Positions 21,824-30,748 are shown, counted from the stretch's first letter. The stretch is DNA of 35,077 nucleotides from an uncultured bacterium (GCA_947361225.1 CANAIK010000015.1:1-35077); one strand, 5' to 3'. Numbers and translations are program-made. The notes: a model not told the origin generated them from the letters alone.

Positions 21824-21831
21824 AATCACTT

Positions 21832-21863
21832 AAAAACCTCTTAATTTTTTTAAGAGGTTTTTT
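21832..21863 (+). terminator. Intrinsic terminator after ileS-rubrerythrin
   Basis: AAAAACCTCTTAA and TTAAGAGGTTTTT make a long stem with a five-base T loop and a T tract at 21858-21863. It separates the housekeeping operon from the accessory cluster that begins just after. Confidence 0.85.
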
Positions 21864-21882
21864 AATGCATATAAAATTTTAC

Positions 21883-21911
21883 TTGACAAATTCTAAAAAA
21901 AGTATTAGTAT
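21883..21911 (+). promoter_or_regulatory. Promoter of the four-gene PP-loop cluster
   Basis: A perfect TTGACA (21883-21888) is 17 bases from TAGTAT (21906-21911). The -10 lies in a repeated AGTATT-AGTATT-AGT stretch, and TAGTTTACTA just after it (21911-21920) is an inverted repeat that could be an operator. This is the best consensus promoter in the window. Confidence 0.7.
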
Positions 21912-22080
21912 TAGTTTACTAGACTTAATGATTTTAAAATCAAAAATTGTTTGGATTATTTGCCACCCCATTAAATTAAAAGTTTGGATATTTACAATAA
22001 ATATTAAATAAAATTATTTCTAAGGCAAGAAACAAATTTTAAAACATTATTTCTTTAAAAATATTTATAAAGGAGAAAAA
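21912..22080 (+). other. Long AT-rich leader before the PP-loop cluster
   Basis: About 160 bases of predicted untranslated leader. It includes a 14-base palindrome, TGATTTTAAAATCA (21929-21942), and otherwise no strong hairpin or open frame. It ends in AAAGGAGAAAAA directly before the first start codon. The long leader contrasts with the very short leaders inferred elsewhere in the window. Confidence 0.4.
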
Positions 22081-23334
22081 ATGGAACAAAATTATGTTGC
22101 CAAGGTACTTTTGGCGCTTGCTAAGGATGAGAATTTTTTTAGTCAAAAAAATAAAAATTTTTCAATTGGATTATCCGAGAATGATATTAAAAAAGTAAAA
22201 AACTATTGTCTTGATAACAATTTAATTGAAAAAAACGACAAAAACTATACAATAAGTGTTAAGGGTTTAAAATTAATTAAAAACTACAAAGATAAACTAA
22301 GAATTACAAATATTGAATATTTAAAAGTTGAAAAAACCCCTCCAACCCTAACTAAAGCAATAAGAGCGCTTGCAAGACACTTAATTGAAGACGAAGTTCT
22401 CAAAAAAGACAGCCTTGAGGAGAATTTAAAAAAAGAGCTCCTTAATTTTCGTGAATTGAAAAAAGAAGTTGAGAATTATATTTATAATCGAAAAGAAATA
22501 AATTTAGAAGAATATTTCGATGAATTTTTGTCTAAAGGTTTAACCAAATCAATTGTGTCGATTCTGTTGTTGAATTTTTTAGCTAAATACAAAAACGAAT
22601 TTGCATTCTATGAAAAAAATCAATTCGAGCTCGATTTTACCCCCTTAATGTTTGATAGAATGGTTGTTAATCCTAAAAATTTTGAAATTAAAAAAGTAGT
22701 TCTTAACTCAAGTTTTTTAAATGAAAAAATTAATATTCTTAAGGAAACTAAAAAATTAATCCTTAAATTCCAATCCTTAGAAAAAATCGCCCTCAAAACC
22801 AATTTTTTAAGTCCTAAGACTCTAAAATTTAAAAATATTGTACTAAACGCAAAAGACCCAATGCAGCTATACTTGAGGGATTTAGAGAAAATTTTTAAAA
22901 ATAAAGAAGAATTTTCGGATTCAATTGTTGAACTTGAGAATTTTTATATAAATTTAATTCAAGAGCTTGAAAAATTTGTTTTGGTTGAATTTAGGACGGA
23001 TTCTTTATTCAATCTTAAAAACAGGTTCGATAGAATTAAACAATTTATAAATAATAAAGAACTTTTGATTCTTGGTAATAACTTAGTTTCAATTGAAAGA
23101 TTCTCAACCTATATTAACCAAAAAAGAGTCCCTCGTGATTGGGATGATTTGGATATTTCTAATTTTAAGCTAAAAACCAAAGAATTAGCGCAAATTTTCT
23201 TAATTATTGAATCAACAATCGATTCCTCTGGTTGCGCAATTGAAACTGTTACTCAAAATTTGGTTAATGAAATTTCTAAACTTGATAGGATTCAAAAAAA
23301 TATTCTATTAAGAAAGGTGGTTCAAATTGATTGA
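22081..23334 (+). CDS. Unrecognised 417-aa protein leading the PP-loop cluster
   Basis: No family recognised. Residues 1-75 look like a winged helix-turn-helix: helices VAKVLLALAKD and ENDIKKVKNYCLDNNLIEK, then a strand pair KNYTISVKGLKLIKN. Residues 90-190 and 260-417 are mostly charged, Lys/Glu-rich helices (SLEENLKKELLNFRELKKEV; DPMQLYLRDLEKIFKNKEEF). The central stretch around 185-260 has repeated strand-like KFKNIVLNA and EIKKVVLNSSFL pieces. There is no signal peptide, membrane helix, Walker motif or obvious nuclease motif. The ATG follows AAAGGAGAAAAA. Its end overlaps the next gene by 8 bases, so it is co-translated with three PP-loop proteins. A DNA- or RNA-recognition subunit is a reasonable guess, no more. 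Confidence 0.75.
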   Translation: MEQNYVAKVLLALAKDENFFSQKNKNFSIGLSENDIKKVKNYCLDNNLIEKNDKNYTISVKGLKLIKNYKDKLRITNIEYLKVEKTPPTLTKAIRALARHLIEDEVLKKDSLEENLKKELLNFRELKKEVENYIYNRKEINLEEYFDEFLSKGLTKSIVSILLLNFLAKYKNEFAFYEKNQFELDFTPLMFDRMVVNPKNFEIKKVVLNSSFLNEKINILKETKKLILKFQSLEKIALKTNFLSPKTLKFKNIVLNAKDPMQLYLRDLEKIFKNKEEFSDSIVELENFYINLIQELEKFVLVEFRTDSLFNLKNRFDRIKQFINNKELLILGNNLVSIERFSTYINQKRVPRDWDDLDISNFKLKTKELAQIFLIIESTIDSSGCAIETVTQNLVNEISKLDRIQKNILLRKVVQID

Positions 23335-24124
23335 ACATCATATTCTAAGTTTGTCGGGCGGTAAGGATTCAACCGCCCTTGCTTTCTATATTAAGGATAA
23401 TATGTCTGAAATTTTTGATAGAATGGAACTTGTTTTCTATGACACAGGTTGTGATTTAGAGGAAACTTATGATTATTTAAATAAAATTGAAGTATTTTTG
23501 GATAAAAAAATAACTTATGTTAAACCGCAAGATAGTTTCGACAAAATTCTTTTAAAAACAAGAATGATACCCACTGTTTTTAAGCGCTGGTGTACTTTGG
23601 AATTAAAAATTAAACCTTCGAATGAGTTTTTAAAAAAGAAAGTAGAGGATGAAAAAATTGATAGAATTAAAATTTATGTTGGAATTCGAGCAGACGAACA
23701 ATATAGAAAAGGGGTTCAATTAAAATCTGCTTTTGAAAAAAAATATATCAATCCTGTTTATCCTTTTATTGACAATGGAATTACAAAACAAGACGTCGAG
23801 GATATTTTGATAAAATCCGGCATAAATTATCCTGATTATTACAAATGGAGGAAAAGAAACGGTTGTTTTTTCTGTCCTTATCAAAGTCCTTACGACTGGG
23901 TTTTGTTGTATGAAAACCATCCAAAATTGTTCTATAAAGCTATGGAATATGAAAAAATCGGAGATGTTGGAAAAAAACGAGTGTTTAGCTTTAATCCCAA
24001 CTTGACCTTAAAGGAAATACTTAAAAATAAGGATAGAATTAAAGAACAAGAGGTTAACAAAAAAAGAAAAAAGAAAAATATTCAAAAATTATTCAATTTG
24101 TTTATTAAGGAGGTACAAATTTGA
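23327..24124 (+). CDS. PAPS-reductase-like PP-loop ATPase, paralogue 1 of 3
   Basis: A 265-residue member of the PAPS reductase/DndC-like adenine nucleotide alpha-hydrolase group. These enzymes split ATP to AMP and pyrophosphate and adenylate a substrate, often for sulfur transfer. The PP-loop is SLSGGKDSTALAF (residues 8-20). Then come FYDTGCDLEETYDY, KRWCTLELKIKP (Cys89), VGIRADEQYR, and YKWRKRNGCFFCPYQSPYDW (Cys180, Cys183). Cys89 plus the CxxC pair could hold an iron-sulfur cluster. The start is TTG after AAGGTGG, overlapping the previous gene by 8 bases. A true PAPS reductase for sulfate assimilation is unlikely: no sulfate genes are near and three copies sit in tandem. Confidence 0.88.
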   Translation: MIEHHILSLSGGKDSTALAFYIKDNMSEIFDRMELVFYDTGCDLEETYDYLNKIEVFLDKKITYVKPQDSFDKILLKTRMIPTVFKRWCTLELKIKPSNEFLKKKVEDEKIDRIKIYVGIRADEQYRKGVQLKSAFEKKYINPVYPFIDNGITKQDVEDILIKSGINYPDYYKWRKRNGCFFCPYQSPYDWVLLYENHPKLFYKAMEYEKIGDVGKKRVFSFNPNLTLKEILKNKDRIKEQEVNKKRKKKNIQKLFNLFIKEVQI

Positions 24125-24915
24125 AAGAATATCATATCTTAGCTCTTTCGGGAGGAAAAGACAGTGCAGCGCTGGCGTTTTATATTAAAGATAATATGTC
24201 TGAAATTTTCGATAGAATGGAACTTGTTTTTTGTGATACGGAACAGGAAATCCCCGAAACCTATGATTATTTAAATAAAATCGAAGTTTTTTTAGATAAA
24301 AAAATTACAAGATTAAAACCGCAAAAAAGTTTTAATCATTTAATGGAAACACTTAATTTTCTGCCTTCCTATAAAAATAGATGGTGTACACCTTTATTAA
24401 AAACAAAATCAATGAATGAATATATTAAAAAACTAAGAAATAAAGACGATTCATCAATAATTTATCTTTATATCGGAATTAGAGCGGATGAATTTTTTAG
24501 AACCAAATCCGCAGGCAAGAATTCGTTGTTAAAAGAGGTTTTTCCTTTTGTTGATAATAATATTTATAAAAACGATGTATTTAATATCCTAAATAATAAA
24601 GGAATCGGAATTCCCGATTATTACAAATGGAGAAAACGCTCAGGATGTTATTTTTGTTTTTATCAATCCTGTTTTGACTGGATACAATTGTACGAAAACC
24701 ATCCGGATTTGTATTATAAAGCAATGGAATATGAATATAATGATTGCGCTAAAATTAAAAACGGAAGAATGGGTTTTAATATGAAATTTGCCCTTAAAGA
24801 TTTGATTAAACCCGAGAATATCAGATTAATTAAGGAAAAAGAGAGAAAGAAAACTGTTAATAATAAAAATTTTGTATTATTTACTAAATATTTAAAAAAG
24901 GAGCTTAGTTTATAA
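24121..24915 (+). CDS. PAPS-reductase-like PP-loop ATPase, paralogue 2 of 3
   Basis: A 264-residue paralogue of its neighbours. PP-loop ALSGGKDSAALAF, NRWCTPLLKTK (Cys89), IGIRADEFFR, YKWRKRSGCYFCFYQSCFDW (Cys176, Cys179). It differs after the PP-loop: copies 1 and 3 read DTGCDLEE or DTGCDLDE, while this one reads CDTEQEIPE, so Cys42 is missing and a Cys appears at 38. Residues 18-62 are otherwise almost the same as copy 1, and the rest is much more diverged. The start is TTG after AAGGAGG, in a TTGA overlap with the previous stop. Different residues at equivalent positions suggest different substrates, or division of labour within one complex. Confidence 0.88.
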   Translation: MKEYHILALSGGKDSAALAFYIKDNMSEIFDRMELVFCDTEQEIPETYDYLNKIEVFLDKKITRLKPQKSFNHLMETLNFLPSYKNRWCTPLLKTKSMNEYIKKLRNKDDSSIIYLYIGIRADEFFRTKSAGKNSLLKEVFPFVDNNIYKNDVFNILNNKGIGIPDYYKWRKRSGCYFCFYQSCFDWIQLYENHPDLYYKAMEYEYNDCAKIKNGRMGFNMKFALKDLIKPENIRLIKEKERKKTVNNKNFVLFTKYLKKELSL

Positions 24916-25694
24916 TGAAAGAATGTCATATCTTAAGTTTATCAGGTGGAAAAGATTCAACGGCTTTAGCGTTTTTTATTAAAGACAATATGCCTGAAAT
25001 TCATAAAAAAATTGAATATGTGTTTTTCGATACGGGTTGTGATTTAGATGAAACTTATGATTATTTAAATAAATTGGAGGTTTTTCTTGAAAAACCGATT
25101 TTAAGAATTAAACCTGAAAAAAGTTTTGAACATTTATATGAAATGTATAAATTTTTACCATCTTTAAAGTTTCGTTGGTGCACGATTCATATGAAAACAG
25201 ATACTTTTAAAAAATATATGAATGAAAAAACAAAGAAAGGTTTTGAAAAAATTAATTTATATGTTGGAATAAGAGCTGATGAGCCCCAAAGGGTTGAAAA
25301 TTATAAAAAGCAAAATAAAGAAAACGAAAATAGTATTCTAAAAACCCATTATCCGCTTTACGAAAATGGATTAAACGAAAAAGATGTTTATAATTTGCTT
25401 GTTACAAATGGCGTTGGATATCCTGACTATTATGACTGGCGTTCTCGTTCAGGTTGCTATTTTTGCTTTTTTCAAAGAAAAATTGAATGGATTGGATTAC
25501 TTGAAAGGCATCCGGACTTATTTCAAAAAGCACTTTTATTTGAGAAAAAAGCCGGCAAGGGCTTTACCTGGTGTCAGAATATATCATTAGAAGAATTAAA
25601 AAAACCCTGTAATGTTAAAAAGATAAAAGATAGTTATAAAAAAAGATTTGAAAAAAAAGGATTCAAAAATAAAAAATTAATTGATTGTATTTAG
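24915..25694 (+). CDS. PAPS-reductase-like PP-loop ATPase, paralogue 3 of 3
   Basis: A 259-residue paralogue with PP-loop SLSGGKDSTALAFF, FDTGCDLDETYDY (Cys42 kept as in copy 1), FRWCTIHMKTD (Cys89), VGIRADEPQR and YDWRSRSGCYFCFFQRKIEW (Cys181, Cys184). The C-terminus is short and basic (KKRFEKKGFKNKKL), as in the other two, which would suit nucleic-acid contact. The ATG overlaps the previous stop by one base (TAATG) and follows AAAAGGAG. Its stop overlaps the convergent phospholipase-D-like gene's stop by 4 bases; there is no room for a terminator between them. Confidence 0.88.
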   Translation: MKECHILSLSGGKDSTALAFFIKDNMPEIHKKIEYVFFDTGCDLDETYDYLNKLEVFLEKPILRIKPEKSFEHLYEMYKFLPSLKFRWCTIHMKTDTFKKYMNEKTKKGFEKINLYVGIRADEPQRVENYKKQNKENENSILKTHYPLYENGLNEKDVYNLLVTNGVGYPDYYDWRSRSGCYFCFFQRKIEWIGLLERHPDLFQKALLFEKKAGKGFTWCQNISLEELKKPCNVKKIKDSYKKRFEKKGFKNKKLIDCI

Positions 25695-27022
25695 TTAAAA
25701 ACGGCTTTGCAATAAAATTCTTCACTGTCATAATAACCATTATGATTATTGTCAACCCCGTCAAAGCAAGAATTTATAGAATCAGGCGACTCGGCTTGCG
25801 GGTCGCCTAAAAGCCATTTTTCAGGTATAGATTGCCATAATCTTAAAAATTCAGTTTTAAAATTTTGCGCAAGTTGCTCATTTTGAATTATTAGTGTATT
25901 TTCATCATTGGTTTTTTCTGCTGAATTTGTCCAATTCATTGAAGCAACTACGATATATTTATCATCAATAATTGCGGATTTCATATGCATTTTTCCGCCC
26001 CAATTTTCGGTTTTTACGGCAATTTGATTCTTTCTTAATAATTCGTGCTTGGAGTATTCGTTATTTGCAGAATTTGCGTCAATTATAATTTTTATATCAA
26101 CCCCACGCTTTTTTGCTTTTATTAAACTATCAATTACCCCTCTATGAGTTAAATAAAAAATTGGAGTGTAAATATATGTATTAGCACTATTAATCAACGG
26201 TATTAATTCATTTGAAATTGGTTTATCTTGAGGTGAAAAGAAAACGGAAATTTTCGTATTATTTCCTATATTTATATTTCTATTTTTTATCTTGTTTTTG
26301 CTTTTTGAATTGTGGAATTTATTTTTAAAGTACATTTGATTAAATTCTTTTTCGTATAATTGCGCAATTTTTTTTGATTTCAATAATGCTGATACATTTG
26401 CGTTGTAACTCATGCAATTTTCAGTAATATTCGTAGAACCTGTCCAAACGTAAATTTTATCAACTATAAAAAATTTATTATGCATTATAGCCGAACGAAT
26501 ATCAAAATTTGCATTTGAATTATTTTGTAGTTCATTATAAACTCTTAAATCCTCATAATAATCACTTTTTATTCCGTCTATTTGGCTTAATAATATATCT
26601 GTTTCTTTATAAATATTATAATTCCTTATATCTTTATCGATAATGCCATAAATTTTAACACCCCGTTGTTTAGCCTCTTTTAGCGCAGATAAAATTTTTT
26701 CCTGACCCGAATAACCATAAATTGCAAATTTAATTTCTTTTTTGGCATTTTTTATTACGCCTAATAAACTTGAACAATTGTCATTAACGCAGTTTCTTTG
26801 CGGGCGAGAAAAAGATAGGGGATCTGTATAAAATAATTTTACATCTCCATTATTTATTGCGGATATATCATAATCAGATGATTGTATCGCTTTGTAAGTT
26901 TTATCGTCAGTATCTTGAAAGTCTTTTAATGCTTTAACTTCATTAGAATAAGCGCTGAAATTAAAAAATAGAATATAAACTATGCAAAAAATTTGTATCT
27001 TTAAAAATTTTGGCAGGTTCAT
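25691..27022 (-). CDS. Secreted phospholipase-D-like (double HKD) protein with Cys-flanked calcium-type motif
   Basis: A 443-residue exported protein with a signal peptide over about residues 1-27 (cut near SAYS-NE). Both HKD motifs of the PLD superfamily are complete: IMHNKFFIVDKIYVWTGSTN and KMHMKSAIIDDKYIVVASMN. The layout with short loops is closer to the Nuc/endonuclease-type PLDs than to large phospholipases, so a secreted nuclease or a lipid hydrolase are both possible. The C-terminus has CFDGVDNNHNGYYDSEEF, then YC: a Cys-bracketed Asp-rich loop like calcium-binding repeats of secreted proteins. It is convergent with the PP-loop cluster and 92 bases after an XRE regulator on the same strand, which may control it. 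Confidence 0.85.
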   Translation of the reverse strand: MNLPKFLKIQIFCIVYILFFNFSAYSNEVKALKDFQDTDDKTYKAIQSSDYDISAINNGDVKLFYTDPLSFSRPQRNCVNDNCSSLLGVIKNAKKEIKFAIYGYSGQEKILSALKEAKQRGVKIYGIIDKDIRNYNIYKETDILLSQIDGIKSDYYEDLRVYNELQNNSNANFDIRSAIMHNKFFIVDKIYVWTGSTNITENCMSYNANVSALLKSKKIAQLYEKEFNQMYFKNKFHNSKSKNKIKNRNINIGNNTKISVFFSPQDKPISNELIPLINSANTYIYTPIFYLTHRGVIDSLIKAKKRGVDIKIIIDANSANNEYSKHELLRKNQIAVKTENWGGKMHMKSAIIDDKYIVVASMNWTNSAEKTNDENTLIIQNEQLAQNFKTEFLRLWQSIPEKWLLGDPQAESPDSINSCFDGVDNNHNGYYDSEEFYCKAVFN

Positions 27023-27063
27023 TGCACTATTTTACTTTAAATAAAAATTTTATACAACAAAAT

Positions 27064-27092
27064 AACTGTAATGTCGTACTTATTTTACAGTT
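27064..27092. promoter_or_regulatory. Inverted repeat between the XRE gene and the PLD-like gene
   Basis: AACTGTAA (27064-27071) and TTACAGTT (27085-27092) are perfect inverted arms 13 bases apart. On the minus strand it is 22 bases after the XRE stop and is followed by ATTTTGTT, so it could be a weak terminator. It is also 42 bases upstream of the PLD-like start, where an operator would act. Confidence 0.4.
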
Positions 27093-27114
27093 TATTTAAT
27101 ATTTAGTTTTTTGC

Positions 27115-27456
27115 CTAAATAAAATCAATTATTTTATTAATTTTATTCAACTTTTCTTCGTTAACTGTATTTAGTTTTGAATTAATTTCTTTTATAATTT
27201 CTGACTTTTTTGATGTTATTTCATAATTTGAATTATTGTAAAAATATTCGATTTGAATATTAAAAGCTTTAGCAATTGCTAAGATTGTTTTAATTGAGGG
27301 CTTGTGTTTCCCGCTTTCAGCCCTTGCTATTGTTGAAGTATCCAATTCTGTTTTTTCTGCAAATTGTTCTTGCGATAAGTCTAAAACCCGCCTTAAATCC
27401 AAGATTTTATTTGCAATATGTTTTGTTGTTTGAGTATATTCTTTAGAAATATCCAT
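27115..27456 (-). CDS. XRE-family transcriptional regulator (113 aa)
   Basis: A Cro/C1-type DNA-binding protein. The helix-turn-helix is at about residues 14-66: HIANKILDLRRVLDLSQEQF, then AEKTELDTSTIARAESGKHK and PSIKTILAIAKAFNI. The C-terminal 40 residues are a charged helix (EIIKEINSKLNTVNEEKLNK) likely for dimerisation. I chose the ATG at 27456 (MDISKEYTQ). Upstream in-frame ATGs at 27492 and 27525 would put the three 12-base boxes inside the gene. The boxes lie directly upstream of the chosen start, suggesting autoregulation. It may also control the PLD-like gene that follows on the same strand, or the divergent XRE gene. Confidence 0.85.
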   Translation of the reverse strand: MDISKEYTQTTKHIANKILDLRRVLDLSQEQFAEKTELDTSTIARAESGKHKPSIKTILAIAKAFNIQIEYFYNNSNYEITSKKSEIIKEINSKLNTVNEEKLNKINKIIDFI

Positions 27457-27474
27457 ACTAACAAAATAATATTT

Positions 27475-27526
27475 ATTGCAGTATTTTTCCATTGCAGTAT
27501 TTATTGATATATTAAAATACTGCAAT
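27475..27526. promoter_or_regulatory. Three-copy operator-like box ATTGCAGTATTT
   Basis: The same 12-mer occurs without mismatch three times in 52 bases: forward at 27475-27486 and 27491-27502, and inverted (AAATACTGCAAT) at 27515-27526. The forward pair are 16 bases apart start to start. The inverted pair frames an AT-rich core that could hold the minus-strand -10. Position just upstream of an XRE gene and the Cro/CI-like three-site layout suggest that regulator's operator. Confidence 0.7.
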
Positions 27527-27532
27527 ATTAAT

Positions 27533-27567
27533 TAATCATATAGAAAATATAATTTATAAAAATTTTT
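27533..27567 (+). repeat. 35-base imperfect direct repeat, copy A
   Basis: Begins TAATCATATAGAAAATATAA and ends in a T5 run. It matches copy B at 30635-30669 with three mismatches. The two copies bracket the XRE(+), Fic and ATPase genes, and each lies about 80-110 bases upstream of a plus-strand start. They may be edges of an inserted block or a shared promoter-type element; AT-richness raises the chance of coincidence. Confidence 0.45.
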
Positions 27568-27638
27568 TGGTAGTTAAAATTTGCCTAAAGGTGTCTTTTA
27601 TTTTGGAAAAGTATCAAATAAAGCATTATTTTATTATT

Positions 27639-27968
27639 ATGAACACCAACGAACTTATTGGAAAAAAGATAAAAAACTTAAGATACGAAGCTAAATTAAC
27701 ACAGAATCAATTGGCAGATGAACTTTCAATTCATCCCAAGCATTTAAGCAATATTGAAAACGGCAAAAAATCAATTACAATTTCACTTTTGGATAAATTA
27801 TGCAATATTTTTAAAAAACCTGCTATTTTCTTTTTTGATTTTGAAGAGCACAAAATTTTCGATGATGATATAAGAATAATTGATTCCATTGTGCATAGAC
27901 TAAAAACCACGGACGACAAAACAAGAAAAGATATAGCACAAATTGTTAGAATTCTGGTTAAAAAATAA
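27639..27968 (+). CDS. XRE-family transcriptional regulator (109 aa)
   Basis: A second Cro/C1-type regulator, divergent from the first. The helix-turn-helix covers residues 4-60: LIGKKIKNLRYEAKLTQNQL, then ADELSIHPKHLSNIENGKKS and ITISLLDKLCNIFKKPAIFF. The C-terminal part is charged and helical. The start at 27639 (MNTNELIG) puts the domain at the N-terminus, as usual; the longer frame from 27567 adds 24 residues without similarity to anything. It is convergent with the ATPase remnant and Fic gene. Small XRE proteins next to Fic proteins sometimes act as antitoxin or repressor, but this one is on the opposite strand. Confidence 0.82.
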   Translation: MNTNELIGKKIKNLRYEAKLTQNQLADELSIHPKHLSNIENGKKSITISLLDKLCNIFKKPAIFFFDFEEHKIFDDDIRIIDSIVHRLKTTDDKTRKDIAQIVRILVKK

Positions 27969-27995
27969 AATTTATATTCTATTAATTACTTAAGG

Positions 27996-28147
27996 TTTTT
28001 GCAATTTAATGGGATTAAATAAATGAAATCGGAATTACATTAACATCTTTTGTTAAGGGTAAATCCTGTTGACTCAAGCATAAAACAGCGCCTTTGTCTT
28101 TGTTTTTTATGGTATCAAAATTTTTCGCAAACGACTTATCAGGTTTT
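27996..28147 (-). repeat. 152-base direct repeat, copy 1
   Basis: Aligns without gaps to 29285-29436 with 17 mismatches by hand count (about 89% identity). Copy 2 is the living 3' end of the ATPase gene; copy 1 is its orphan counterpart. Same orientation, with the Fic gene exactly between, so recombination between copies would delete Fic. Confidence 0.9.
28015..28147 (-). pseudogene. C-terminal remnant of a second DUF4143-type ATPase gene
   Basis: Read on the minus strand this gives KPDKSFAKNFDTIKNKDKGA, then VLCLSQQDLPLTKDVNVIPI and SFI, with the stop at the same place as in the intact ATPase. Only four residues differ from the last 43 or so residues of that protein. Nothing upstream of this belongs to the ATPase: the Fic gene runs into it and ends at 28139, in another frame. 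Most base changes are silent, so the copy was probably under selection as part of a whole gene before it was truncated. Confidence 0.85.
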
Positions 28148-29194
28148 TGTATACCAAGCACCTCGAGTCTTACCGTGTTTAATTAAATAATTATTTTCAA
28201 CCAAACTTGATAAGTGTTTTTTGATTGTATTTATATTAACCCCTGTTGATTTAGACAATTCGGAAATGGTTGCTCTATCTATGGTTTCAAACACCTCCAT
28301 TATTTTTGCTGAAACTTTAGGTAAGTTTAAATTAGTCTGAACGGAAACATTAGTGTGTTCAATCTTATATTCCAGCCTGATTTTTTGCTTTTGCAAAGTC
28401 TTCAAGAAAAACATCAACCAAGGTTCATAATCCGGATTTTTTTGCAATGTTATTTGTGTTTGTCTTAATGCCCTGTAATATCCTTCTTTGTTATCCTCAA
28501 TTATTGATTCTGTTGAACTATAAGGAATATAGGCATAACCTGATTTTAGCAACAGTAGGTTAGTAAGTGCTCTTGAAAGTCTGCCATTCCCATCTTGAAA
28601 TGGGTGAATTGCAAGAAAATTAACAACAAAAATTCCAATAACAATTAACGGATGATAAAATCTATCAGCCACATTCTTGTTTGTCCATTCAATAAGTTCC
28701 TGCATTTTTAAAGGTGTTTCAAAAGGTGTGGCAGTTTCAAATACGACTCCAAGTTTATTACCCTCATTGTCATAAGCAGCAACTGCATTAGAAATTTTTT
28801 TATATTTGCCCTTATGTTTTTCATCTTTGGAAGAATATTCTAATAAAATCTTATGTAACTGCTTTATATAATTTTCGGACAAGGGAATAACTTCCCAATC
28901 TTCAAATATAGTATCGGCAAGTTTTGCATATCCCGCAACTTCTTCCTCATCACGAGAAGTGAATGACTGTTTTTTGATTCTTGATAACAATTCTTCTACT
29001 TGTTTATCAGATAACTTATTTCCTTCTATGCGGTTTGAAGAACCAATGCTTTCAATAGTTGCGACCTTCTTTAGTGCTCTTAATTTCTCCGGAGCCATTT
29101 TGCCTAACAATTTCCAAGAACCTTTAAATTCATCAATCTCCGAAATTATTGAAAGCATTTGATTATTTATTTTTATATCAATATTTTCCAACAT
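28139..29194 (-). CDS. Fic/DOC-family protein with N-terminal inhibitory helix
   Basis: A 351-residue Fic enzyme, probably an AMP-transferase. The Fic motif is HPFQDGNGRLSRALTNLL (His197 to Arg205 core), complete. The N-terminal segment IGSSNRIEGN holds the inhibitory (S/T)xxxE(G/N) motif (Ser53, Glu57), as in class II Fic proteins that are self-inhibited, so no separate antitoxin is needed. The C-terminal 75 residues form a winged helix (RATISELSKSTGVNINTIKK, then HLSSLVENNYLIKHGKTRGA), typical of the COG3177 group. The stop lies inside the ATPase remnant repeat, so the last codons of Fic may have been supplied by the recombination that joined them. Target proteins unknown. Confidence 0.92.
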   Translation of the reverse strand: MLENIDIKINNQMLSIISEIDEFKGSWKLLGKMAPEKLRALKKVATIESIGSSNRIEGNKLSDKQVEELLSRIKKQSFTSRDEEEVAGYAKLADTIFEDWEVIPLSENYIKQLHKILLEYSSKDEKHKGKYKKISNAVAAYDNEGNKLGVVFETATPFETPLKMQELIEWTNKNVADRFYHPLIVIGIFVVNFLAIHPFQDGNGRLSRALTNLLLLKSGYAYIPYSSTESIIEDNKEGYYRALRQTQITLQKNPDYEPWLMFFLKTLQKQKIRLEYKIEHTNVSVQTNLNLPKVSAKIMEVFETIDRATISELSKSTGVNINTIKKHLSSLVENNYLIKHGKTRGAWYTKT

Positions 29195-29284
29195 ATTATA
29201 CCTAATTAGATTTAATATGACCTAATAATATATTATTTTTATCTAATCGTCAATATTGCAAAACCTTAAATCTTTTTGTCTAAA

Positions 29285-29436
29285 TTTTTGCAATTTAATG
29301 GGATTAAATAAATGAAATCGGAATTACATTCACATCTTTTGTCAATGGTAAATCCTGTTGGCTCAAGCACAAAACTGCACCTTCGCCCTTGTTTTTTATA
29401 GTATCAAAGTTTTTCACCATTGATTTATCAGGTTTT
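29285..29436 (-). repeat. 152-base direct repeat, copy 2 (3' end of the intact ATPase gene)
   Basis: Matches 27996-28147. The first 19 bases lie downstream of the ATPase stop, so the similarity extends past the coding region, which supports descent from one duplicated locus. Confidence 0.9.
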
Positions 29437-30509
29437 GAAGTTAATTTAATTTCAACAGGGTGCAAAAGCCCGTCACGCTCAATCAATAAATCAATTTCTT
29501 TTTTATCAATATCTCGATACCAATATAATGGCGCACGTTTTCCATTATGGAGATAGCTTTTTAAAATTTCCGCTATCGCAAATGTTTCAAAAAACGCTCC
29601 TGCCATAGCGCCTTTTTCTAATACTTCCGCTGATGACCAGCCGGTTAAATAAGCACAAAGTCCTGTATCTAGAAAATAAATTTTAGGCATTTTGGTCATT
29701 CGTTTTGTTATGTTTGTGTAGTATGGTTCAAGTAAATATACAAGTCCTGATGTTACAAGGATTGAAAGCCATTTTTTTGTTGTGGGTTCTGAAATTCCTG
29801 TTTCGTTTGCTAATTCTGAATACTTTAAAACTTGTCCGGTTCGAGCAGCTACAATTCTTATAAACTTTAAAAACGCCATTTCATCGTTGATTGAGGCTAA
29901 ATCTCTAATATCACGCTCCAAGTATGTCTGAATATAAGAACTGTAAAAATAGTCTAAATCCTCAACTTCACCGTTATTTAAAGTAGGATAAAAACCTTTG
30001 TGAATTACTTTAAAAATATCCGAAATTGTATAAGTTTTAGCTGTTTCTCTTCGGGTTTCAATATAGTTATTCGTTGGAATAAAAGGTTTAGGGTTTATAT
30101 TATTACTAATTTCATTTAAAGATAGCCCTAATAAATTTACAATCCCGACACGTCCTGCGAGGGATTCGGATACACCTTTCATTAAGTGAAATTGTTGTGA
30201 TCCGGTTAAAAAATACTGCCCTTTGTCGGATTTTTCATCTACAATAGCTTTAATATACACTAAAAGATTGGGCGCATATTGAATTTCATCTATTATTAAA
30301 GGCGCTTTATATCTTTGCAAAAATAAATCAGGTTCATTAATTGCAAGTTCTCTGATATTAGGTTTATCAAGTGAAGCATAATTACAGTCTTTAAAACATT
30401 CTTTTAAAAGAGTACTTTTACCGACTTGTCTTGCTCCTGTTACTAAAACAACTTTGAATTGCTCTGATAATTTTTTAACAGTGTTTTCAATTGTTCTTTT
30501 TATGTACAT
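29304..30509 (-). CDS. AAA_14/DUF4143-family ATPase
   Basis: A 401-residue protein of a very widespread but poorly understood family of ATPases in bacteria and archaea. Walker A is VLVTGARQVGKSTLL (residues 22-35) and Walker B PLIIDEIQYAPNL (Asp74, Glu75), then sensor FLTGSQQF and an arginine-bearing SLAGRVGIVNLLG. A winged-helix segment, SELANETGISEPTTKKWLSI, follows, and the C-terminal DUF4143 domain has PKIYFLDTGLCAYLTGW. Near the end EIDLLIERDGLLHPVEIKLT resembles a PD-(D/E)xK nuclease core (Asp340, Glu353, Lys355). It is upstream of Fic on the same strand with 109 bases between, and a dead second copy of its 3' end follows Fic. Confidence 0.92.
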   Translation of the reverse strand: MYIKRTIENTVKKLSEQFKVVLVTGARQVGKSTLLKECFKDCNYASLDKPNIRELAINEPDLFLQRYKAPLIIDEIQYAPNLLVYIKAIVDEKSDKGQYFLTGSQQFHLMKGVSESLAGRVGIVNLLGLSLNEISNNINPKPFIPTNNYIETRRETAKTYTISDIFKVIHKGFYPTLNNGEVEDLDYFYSSYIQTYLERDIRDLASINDEMAFLKFIRIVAARTGQVLKYSELANETGISEPTTKKWLSILVTSGLVYLLEPYYTNITKRMTKMPKIYFLDTGLCAYLTGWSSAEVLEKGAMAGAFFETFAIAEILKSYLHNGKRAPLYWYRDIDKKEIDLLIERDGLLHPVEIKLTSKPDKSMVKNFDTIKNKGEGAVLCLSQQDLPLTKDVNVIPISFI

Positions 30510-30634
30510 AAAAAAACTCCGAGAAATCTAAAATGTAATTTTAGAATAATCGGTATTTATAATTCTGTCAAGACGATAAGTTATTAGTTTTTAAACTATT
30601 ACAACATCAAACGGTAAATAAACATAATTTTTTA

Positions 30635-30669
30635 TAATCATATAAAGAATATAACTTATAAAAATTTTT
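30635..30669 (+). repeat. 35-base imperfect direct repeat, copy B
   Basis: Begins TAATCATATAAAGAATATAA and ends in a T5 run; partner of copy A at 27533-27567 (three mismatches). It lies in the 239-base gap 30510-30748 between the ATPase and the lytic transglycosylase, which holds no gene. Confidence 0.45.
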
Positions 30670-30708
30670 AATCATTGTAAATAAGTATTACTAAGAATTA
30701 GTTCCAAT

Positions 30709-30737
30709 TTGCCATTAATAATAGATTAATGTATTAT
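30709..30737 (+). promoter_or_regulatory. Promoter of the lytic transglycosylase gene
   Basis: TTGCCA (30709-30714) and TATTAT (30732-30737) are 17 bases apart. The -10 ends 11 bases before the ATG at 30749, leaving a leader of about five bases and no proper ribosome site. Confidence 0.6.
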
Positions 30738-30748
30738 AAAAATAGGAT

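Follow-up and report, generated by a model that had tools for sequence, protein, structure and literature searches.

The system closest to the locus described here is Ssp of the Vibrio cyclitrophicus type (SspABCD-SspE or SspABCD-SspFGH), in which SspA forms a complex with SspD and the nickase SspB is described as essential for phosphorothioation (PMC7188994). Type 4 BREX (bacteriophage exclusion) has a relative of SspC together with an enzyme of the phosphoadenosine phosphosulfate (PAPS) reductase type (PMC12839542), and DndC of the Dnd system (DndABCDE) belongs to the same enzyme class. The locus lies in a 35,077-nt stretch of an uncultured bacterium of the order Gastranaerophilales (GCA_947361225.1, CANAIK010000015.1:1-35077), hereafter the window. 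There, the genes C417, D1, D2 and D3 form an operon that runs tail to tail into a nuclease gene, N (Table 1). Across the order, sspD has no more constant partner than N, which belongs to the unit.

The initial annotation had proposed a four-gene operon with three PP-loop paralogues, and this was confirmed: the four open reading frames (ORFs) are open on the plus strand with successive overlaps of 8, 4 and 1 nt, and D1, D2 and D3 each contain SGGKDS, RWCT and GCxFC. D2 and D3 are respectively 55% and 46% identical to D1. The PADLOC SspD matches of all three span nearly the full length; those to BrxP (E 1e-11 to 1e-17) are far weaker and those to DndC (E 1e-4 to 1e-8) much weaker. In a tree, the SspD homologues of the window stand beside canonical SspD, which shares 37-45% identity with the reference Gastranaerophilales SspD, and the catalytic motifs are intact in 65 of the 66 copies of the order. 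A C-terminal CLxCH motif is present in canonical SspD and in 6 of these 66 copies (L031, L062, L064, L172, L173 and L174), and is lost in most units. A search of PDB sequences with D gave one match, 'PptA' (PDB 21fy), for which no paper was traced. A role in sulfate assimilation, which the initial annotation had named as contrary to its reading, was rejected, the CysH/PAPS reductase models being far below cut-off (TIGR00434, 26 bits at best against 165). As PP-loop enzymes include tRNA thiolation enzymes and SNase can cut RNA, D might also thiolate tRNA or other RNA, N then being an RNase. The best family matches, to SspD and then to BrxP and DndC, and the SspC-like partner both speak against this reading, which we consider highly improbable.

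This partner is C417. The initial annotation had found none of the usual partners, a view that is not borne out: residues 79-383 match positions 691-1030 of the 1045-position PADLOC SspC model (E 2e-22), and hhalign of C417 with ten canonical SspC sequences delimited the identical region (probability 99.9, E 7e-31). No Walker A motif was found in 33 C417 homologues, and no further SspC match was found in the genome of the window. C417 is thus the C-terminal part of SspC without the ATPase part, placed behind a winged helix. The earlier label 'winged-helix-like' was right for residues 1-75, the remainder being the SspC part. Residues 1-75 match HTH_45 with an E-value of 0.0016, below the Pfam cut-off, and superimpose on the DNA-binding domain of CggR with a VIA-align Z of 10.4 (rmsd 2.7 Å over 74 residues); the AlphaFold model of this segment has a mean pLDDT of 81.6. 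It is therefore predicted to form a winged helix that takes the place of the SspC ATPase part. The fold search was informative for these 75 residues only, and a PDB sequence search with C417 gave no match. Two early-branching homologues (L027 1504-2640 and L028 5198-6421) have no N-terminal winged helix in the alignment, and the helix may be a later addition. A split SspC has a precedent in Vibrio scophthalmi, where the annotation shows a separate SspC C-terminal piece upstream of sspD. A single-sequence scan of genome contigs with C417 gave no match; the alignment-based scan gave 32 loci, all from Gastranaerophilales where the order was stated. In many genomes C417 is directly upstream of sspD (e.g. 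L066, L068, L087 and L090), and in others it stands alone with several sspD-nuclease units elsewhere (four in G033); as a rule there is one copy per genome.

The locus thus resembles Ssp by its SspD enzymes, by the C-terminal part of SspC directly upstream and by a gene convergent to sspD. In contrast to Ssp, neither SspB, the AAA+ part of SspC nor a dedicated sspA was found. DUF4007 (SspB) was found in none of 14 Gastranaerophilales genomes, that of the window included, and in all five canonical controls. No sspA was present near the operon and no class-V aminotransferase match in the contig of the window; two strong matches lie on other contigs of the genome, and these enzymes could supply sulfur. 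Other differences from Ssp are the exported-looking nuclease in the convergent position, the many dispersed D-N units and the loss of the C-terminal CxxC of SspD in most copies. Since three defining features of Ssp are lacking, the system is an Ssp-derived variant and not Ssp proper. Type 4 BREX shares the PAPS-reductase-type enzyme and the SspC relative, but it is set apart by the weak BrxP match of D and by the absence of DUF4007 from the genome; no PglZ or BrxL gene was found at the window locus, to which that search was confined. Dnd, which shares the enzyme class through DndC, is set apart by the weaker DndC match, and the ten window proteins scanned gave no match to DndD or DndE, the search being limited to these ten.

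Table 1. Features of the locus, with positions in the window.
Feature	Position	Strand	Description	Basis
Accessory island	21824-30748 (borders approximate)		C417-D1-D2-D3, PLD, two XRE regulators, Fic, AAA_14/DUF4143 ATPase	
Promoter-like site and leader	21883-21911 (site); leader to 22080	+	Motif match not above chance	
C417	22081-23334	+	417 aa; SspC C-terminal-region homologue without AAA+ ATPase part; predicted winged helix, residues 1-75	
D1	23327-24124	+	SspD-like PP-loop protein; subtype of L059/L023/L054; cognate nuclease none here	PADLOC SspD E 9.5e-76 and tree
D2	24121-24915	+	SspD-like PP-loop protein; subtype of L167_6/L090/L091; cognate nuclease none here	PADLOC SspD E 3.4e-80 and tree
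D3	24915-25694	+	SspD-like PP-loop protein; subtype of L084/L052; nuclease-paired	PADLOC SspD E 5.9e-89; D and N trees agree
N	25691-27022	-	PLD-family nuclease; N-terminal signal-peptide-like segment; C-terminal CxDGxDNxxxGxxD loop	Pfam PLDc_2 E 1e-49

Tail-to-tail pairing of sspD with a nuclease gene

We surveyed 383 Gastranaerophilales genomes (uncultured, mostly from the gut). SspD was present in 33 of them, C417 in 34 and both in 29 (Fisher p 3e-34). Seventy-one sspD places were read in context, four of which were cut by contig ends, leaving 67 that could be scored. In 56 of the 67, sspD was tail to tail with an SNase and/or PLD nuclease gene, with a median overlap of 12 nt and a spacing within -33 to +28 nt in 55 of the 56 pairs; in the window, N overlaps the 3' end of D3 by 4 nt. 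Four other sspD genes (two in the window, one in G110, one in G347) lie upstream in tandem arrays whose last sspD is paired with a nuclease, and seven have no nuclease. Nuclease-free sspD genes include those of L058, L059, L063, L209 and L203; in L209, a 90-aa ORF that overlaps the sspD tail may be a nuclease remnant. In G068 (L061 5766-6080), sspD and the nuclease gene are separated by a 104-aa ORF of no assigned family. The initial annotation had rightly placed the PLD-like protein beside the operon but had listed it as a mere neighbour, and its idea of a modification or defence module of the SspD/DndC kind, set in an accessory stretch with a conserved partner, is supported.

The N of the window is a PLD-only version of the SNase-PLD nuclease that is paired with sspD across the order. 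As scored by a simple hydrophobicity rule rather than a trained predictor, signal-peptide-like N-termini were present in 47 of 52 N proteins, compared with 2 of 66 SspD and 1 of 30 C417. Two HKD motifs were found in 46 of the 52 N proteins, and CxDGxDN loops of extracytoplasmic type in 22. Judging from the signal-like sequences, N is predicted to be exported. A homologous, exported-looking SNase-PLD gene that is not paired with sspD is near-universal in the order, 349 of the 383 genomes having one (e.g. L157-L164). In the tree, eight such unpaired nucleases stand apart from the paired ones, except that of L164, which groups with two paired nucleases.

Canonical plasmid loci are DUF4007-SspC-SspD operons, mostly with a cysteine desulfurase and often followed by a convergent gene, which codes for a PLD-like protein (Mesorhizobium), a DUF262 protein (Vibrio), a helicase or hypothetical proteins. 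N thus stands where these loci tend to carry effector-type genes. This position, and the Mesorhizobium PLD protein, which is cytoplasmic-looking, without obvious signal peptide, and distantly similar to N, are what one would expect if the locus were an ordinary cytoplasmic Ssp-like defence in which N acts at the membrane or in the cytoplasm on unmodified phage DNA. Such a reading has to contend with the signal-like N-termini and the extracytoplasmic-type loops described above, and we hold it to be quite unlikely. On viral contigs outside Gastranaerophilales, sspD often adjoins a full-length SspC gene and never an exported nuclease. In an Oscillospiraceae phage (L155 2992-3768), a PAPS-reductase-like gene lies between the terminase and portal genes.

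Matched subtypes and an exchanged core

The D tree and the N tree correspond group for group. For 52 pairs, the identity matrices of the two proteins are correlated with a Mantel r of 0.83 (shuffled maximum 0.13), and the correlation is 0.42 after removal of the D pairs that are at least 70% identical. D1, D2 and D3 of the window each belong to a separate supported group, and these three groups have members in other genera; N clusters with the L084 nuclease and D3 with the L084 SspD, and only D3 has its nuclease. A recent tandem duplication was rejected in view of these separate groups, and the three proteins are different old subtypes. The result is thus the opposite of isolated recent duplicates without a conserved neighbourhood, which the initial annotation had named as the finding that would count against its reading. 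Its suggestion that each paralogue performs one step or joins a hetero-oligomer does not fit: most loci have a single SspD, and each subtype of the window trio has relatives elsewhere. Pairs of SspD of the same subtype within one genome (70% threshold) numbered 0 of 78, against 3.6 expected (p 0.017), a modest result because p is 0.06 at an 80% threshold and relatedness is ignored.

We then compared units at the DNA level; segment-wise global alignment was set aside since its chance baseline is 75%. Between units of different subtypes, about 80-98% identity extends over the leader and the first 170-190 nt or so of D, and often over the 5' 600 nt or so of N, but not over the middle. At one C-linked site, G258 and G144 are 96.8% identical from -1968 to D +168 and 96.0% identical from about N codon 206 outwards, and the core between these points is without detectable similarity. 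Conversely, when units of one subtype stand at different sites, the match often runs from near the start of D to near the start of N and ends there. As the outer ends are conserved and the core is wholly different, the variable halves of D and N have been exchanged together. We infer that these halves set specificity.

The tight pairing and the co-variation would be equally expected if D matured N, that is, if the PP-loop enzyme with C417 equipped the nuclease with sulfur or a cofactor prior to its export, the matching being then between enzyme and substrate; DNA as the target of D is itself a deduction. Most genomes nevertheless have a close homologue of N and no D, DNA is the substrate of SspD relatives, and the winged helix of C417 is of a DNA-binding type, all of which makes maturation very unlikely. 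Matched subtypes, the lack of a repeated subtype within a genome and the export signal of N are also compatible with contact-independent antagonism, in which N would be a weapon exported against related strains, D and C417 would give immunity by marking the target nucleic acid, and extra D genes, such as those upstream of complete units in the window, G110 and G347, would be orphan immunity genes. N showed no delivery or receptor domain, the entry of a free nuclease into cells would have to be explained, and the near-universal close homologue of N looks more like a scavenging or entry nuclease; antagonism therefore seems unlikely to us.

Matched modification and nuclease subtypes that travel together, with orphan modification genes besides, recall restriction-modification systems with exchangeable specificity. 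What sets the present locus apart from these is its layout, with the variable halves tail to tail and flanked by conserved outer ends, and the export signal of its nuclease. The Acinetobacter prophage DgiS1 offers another parallel, as it carries an orphan sspD that has been suggested to label the phage DNA as self (PMC12421847). There, as here, sspD is found without its nuclease on a mobile element, but the partner of DgiS1 is a full host Ssp system. The marking proposal would fit the orphan genes D1 and D2. In the literature searched, with most subscription journals outside its scope, no description of the D-N pairing was found.

Leader, promoter-like site and accessory island

A consensus-like promoter had been noted upstream of the operon. 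The site exists (TTGACA-17-TAGTAT, 10 of 12 positions matching the consensus), and it is only suggestive, since such sites are no commoner in the region than in shuffled sequence (40 found, 36.2±6.1 in shuffles). It is followed by a leader of about 170 nt. Before unlinked sspD units (L055 4303-5576, L056, L193 and L201), a leader of about 140-400 nt is conserved with 85-95% DNA identity across genera. An Rfam scan of the window and four units returned two tRNAs only, so that this conserved leader belongs to no known RNA family; sspD of L055 is preceded, at a distance of about 400 nt, by a tRNA gene.

The operon and N are part of an accessory island of about 8.9 kb, between genes for rubrerythrin and a lytic transglycosylase. 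We read 14 same-genus genomes beside the rubrerythrin gene, 12 of which had a continuing contig and kept gene order; in all 12 of these, assembled across the site, the lytic transglycosylase gene directly follows that of rubrerythrin and there is no island. Two divergent XRE-type regulators (27115-27968) adjoin the PLD gene, and related regulators occur near the L053 and L054 units. Further along are a SoFic-like Fic protein and an AAA_14/DUF4143 ATPase (28139-30509). Genes for phage integrase, serine recombinase, DUF5681 and ParB-methylase fusion proteins are neighbours of units, and an IMG/VR contig carries one full set of C417, D and N.

Proposed mode of action

The reading that we favour, tentatively and at somewhat less than even chances, is a compact Ssp-derived modification module joined to an exported nuclease and working like restriction-modification. 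The observations themselves speak for a modification-nuclease pair of matched subtypes; the substrate of the mark and the place of action of N are inferred. D enzymes of the SspD type would get sulfur from a housekeeping cysteine desulfurase, and C417 would guide them to DNA, replacing SspB and the ATPase part of SspC. D would then put a subtype-specific sulfur mark, presumably a phosphorothioate, on the DNA of its own cell or mobile element. N would be exported to the envelope or the medium and would there serve defence by degrading DNA in transit (phage injection, conjugation, transformation or free DNA) that has no mark or the wrong one. The specificities of D and N would reside in the 3' halves and, as these are tail to tail, one recombination in the conserved outer ends would swap both. 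Extra D genes without N, such as D1 and D2, would add marks that let the DNA pass the nucleases of other strains.

Several observations weigh against this proposal. The C-terminal CxxC of canonical SspD is missing from D1 to D3, seven sspD genes have no nuclease and the within-genome exclusion of same-subtype pairs is modest. SspB is absent though described as essential, which means that the chemistry must either differ from that of Ssp or rely on substitutes. Nucleases of the SNase and PLD families usually lack specificity. Finally, an exported N never meets the chromosome, and self-modification would thus be pointless unless DNA in transit were the target; the mark makes sense if such DNA is checked or if the DNA released by related cells is spared.

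That DNA is checked outside the cytoplasm, with an exported nuclease that destroys arriving DNA lacking the right sulfur mark, marking genes that cells or mobile elements collect as passports for their DNA, whether or not the matching nuclease comes along, and tail-to-tail core exchange that renews specificity by swapping marker and nuclease together, is a more doubtful proposition. If it were true, restriction would have moved from the cytoplasm to the cell envelope, and orphan sspD genes on mobile elements could be explained as passports. The locus would be a minimal module of the phosphorothioation type without nickase and ATPase part, and its conserved outer ends with a tail-to-tail variable core would be a simple layout that keeps two specificities matched during exchange. 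It would also open to experiment the question of which Ssp components sulfur marking requires.
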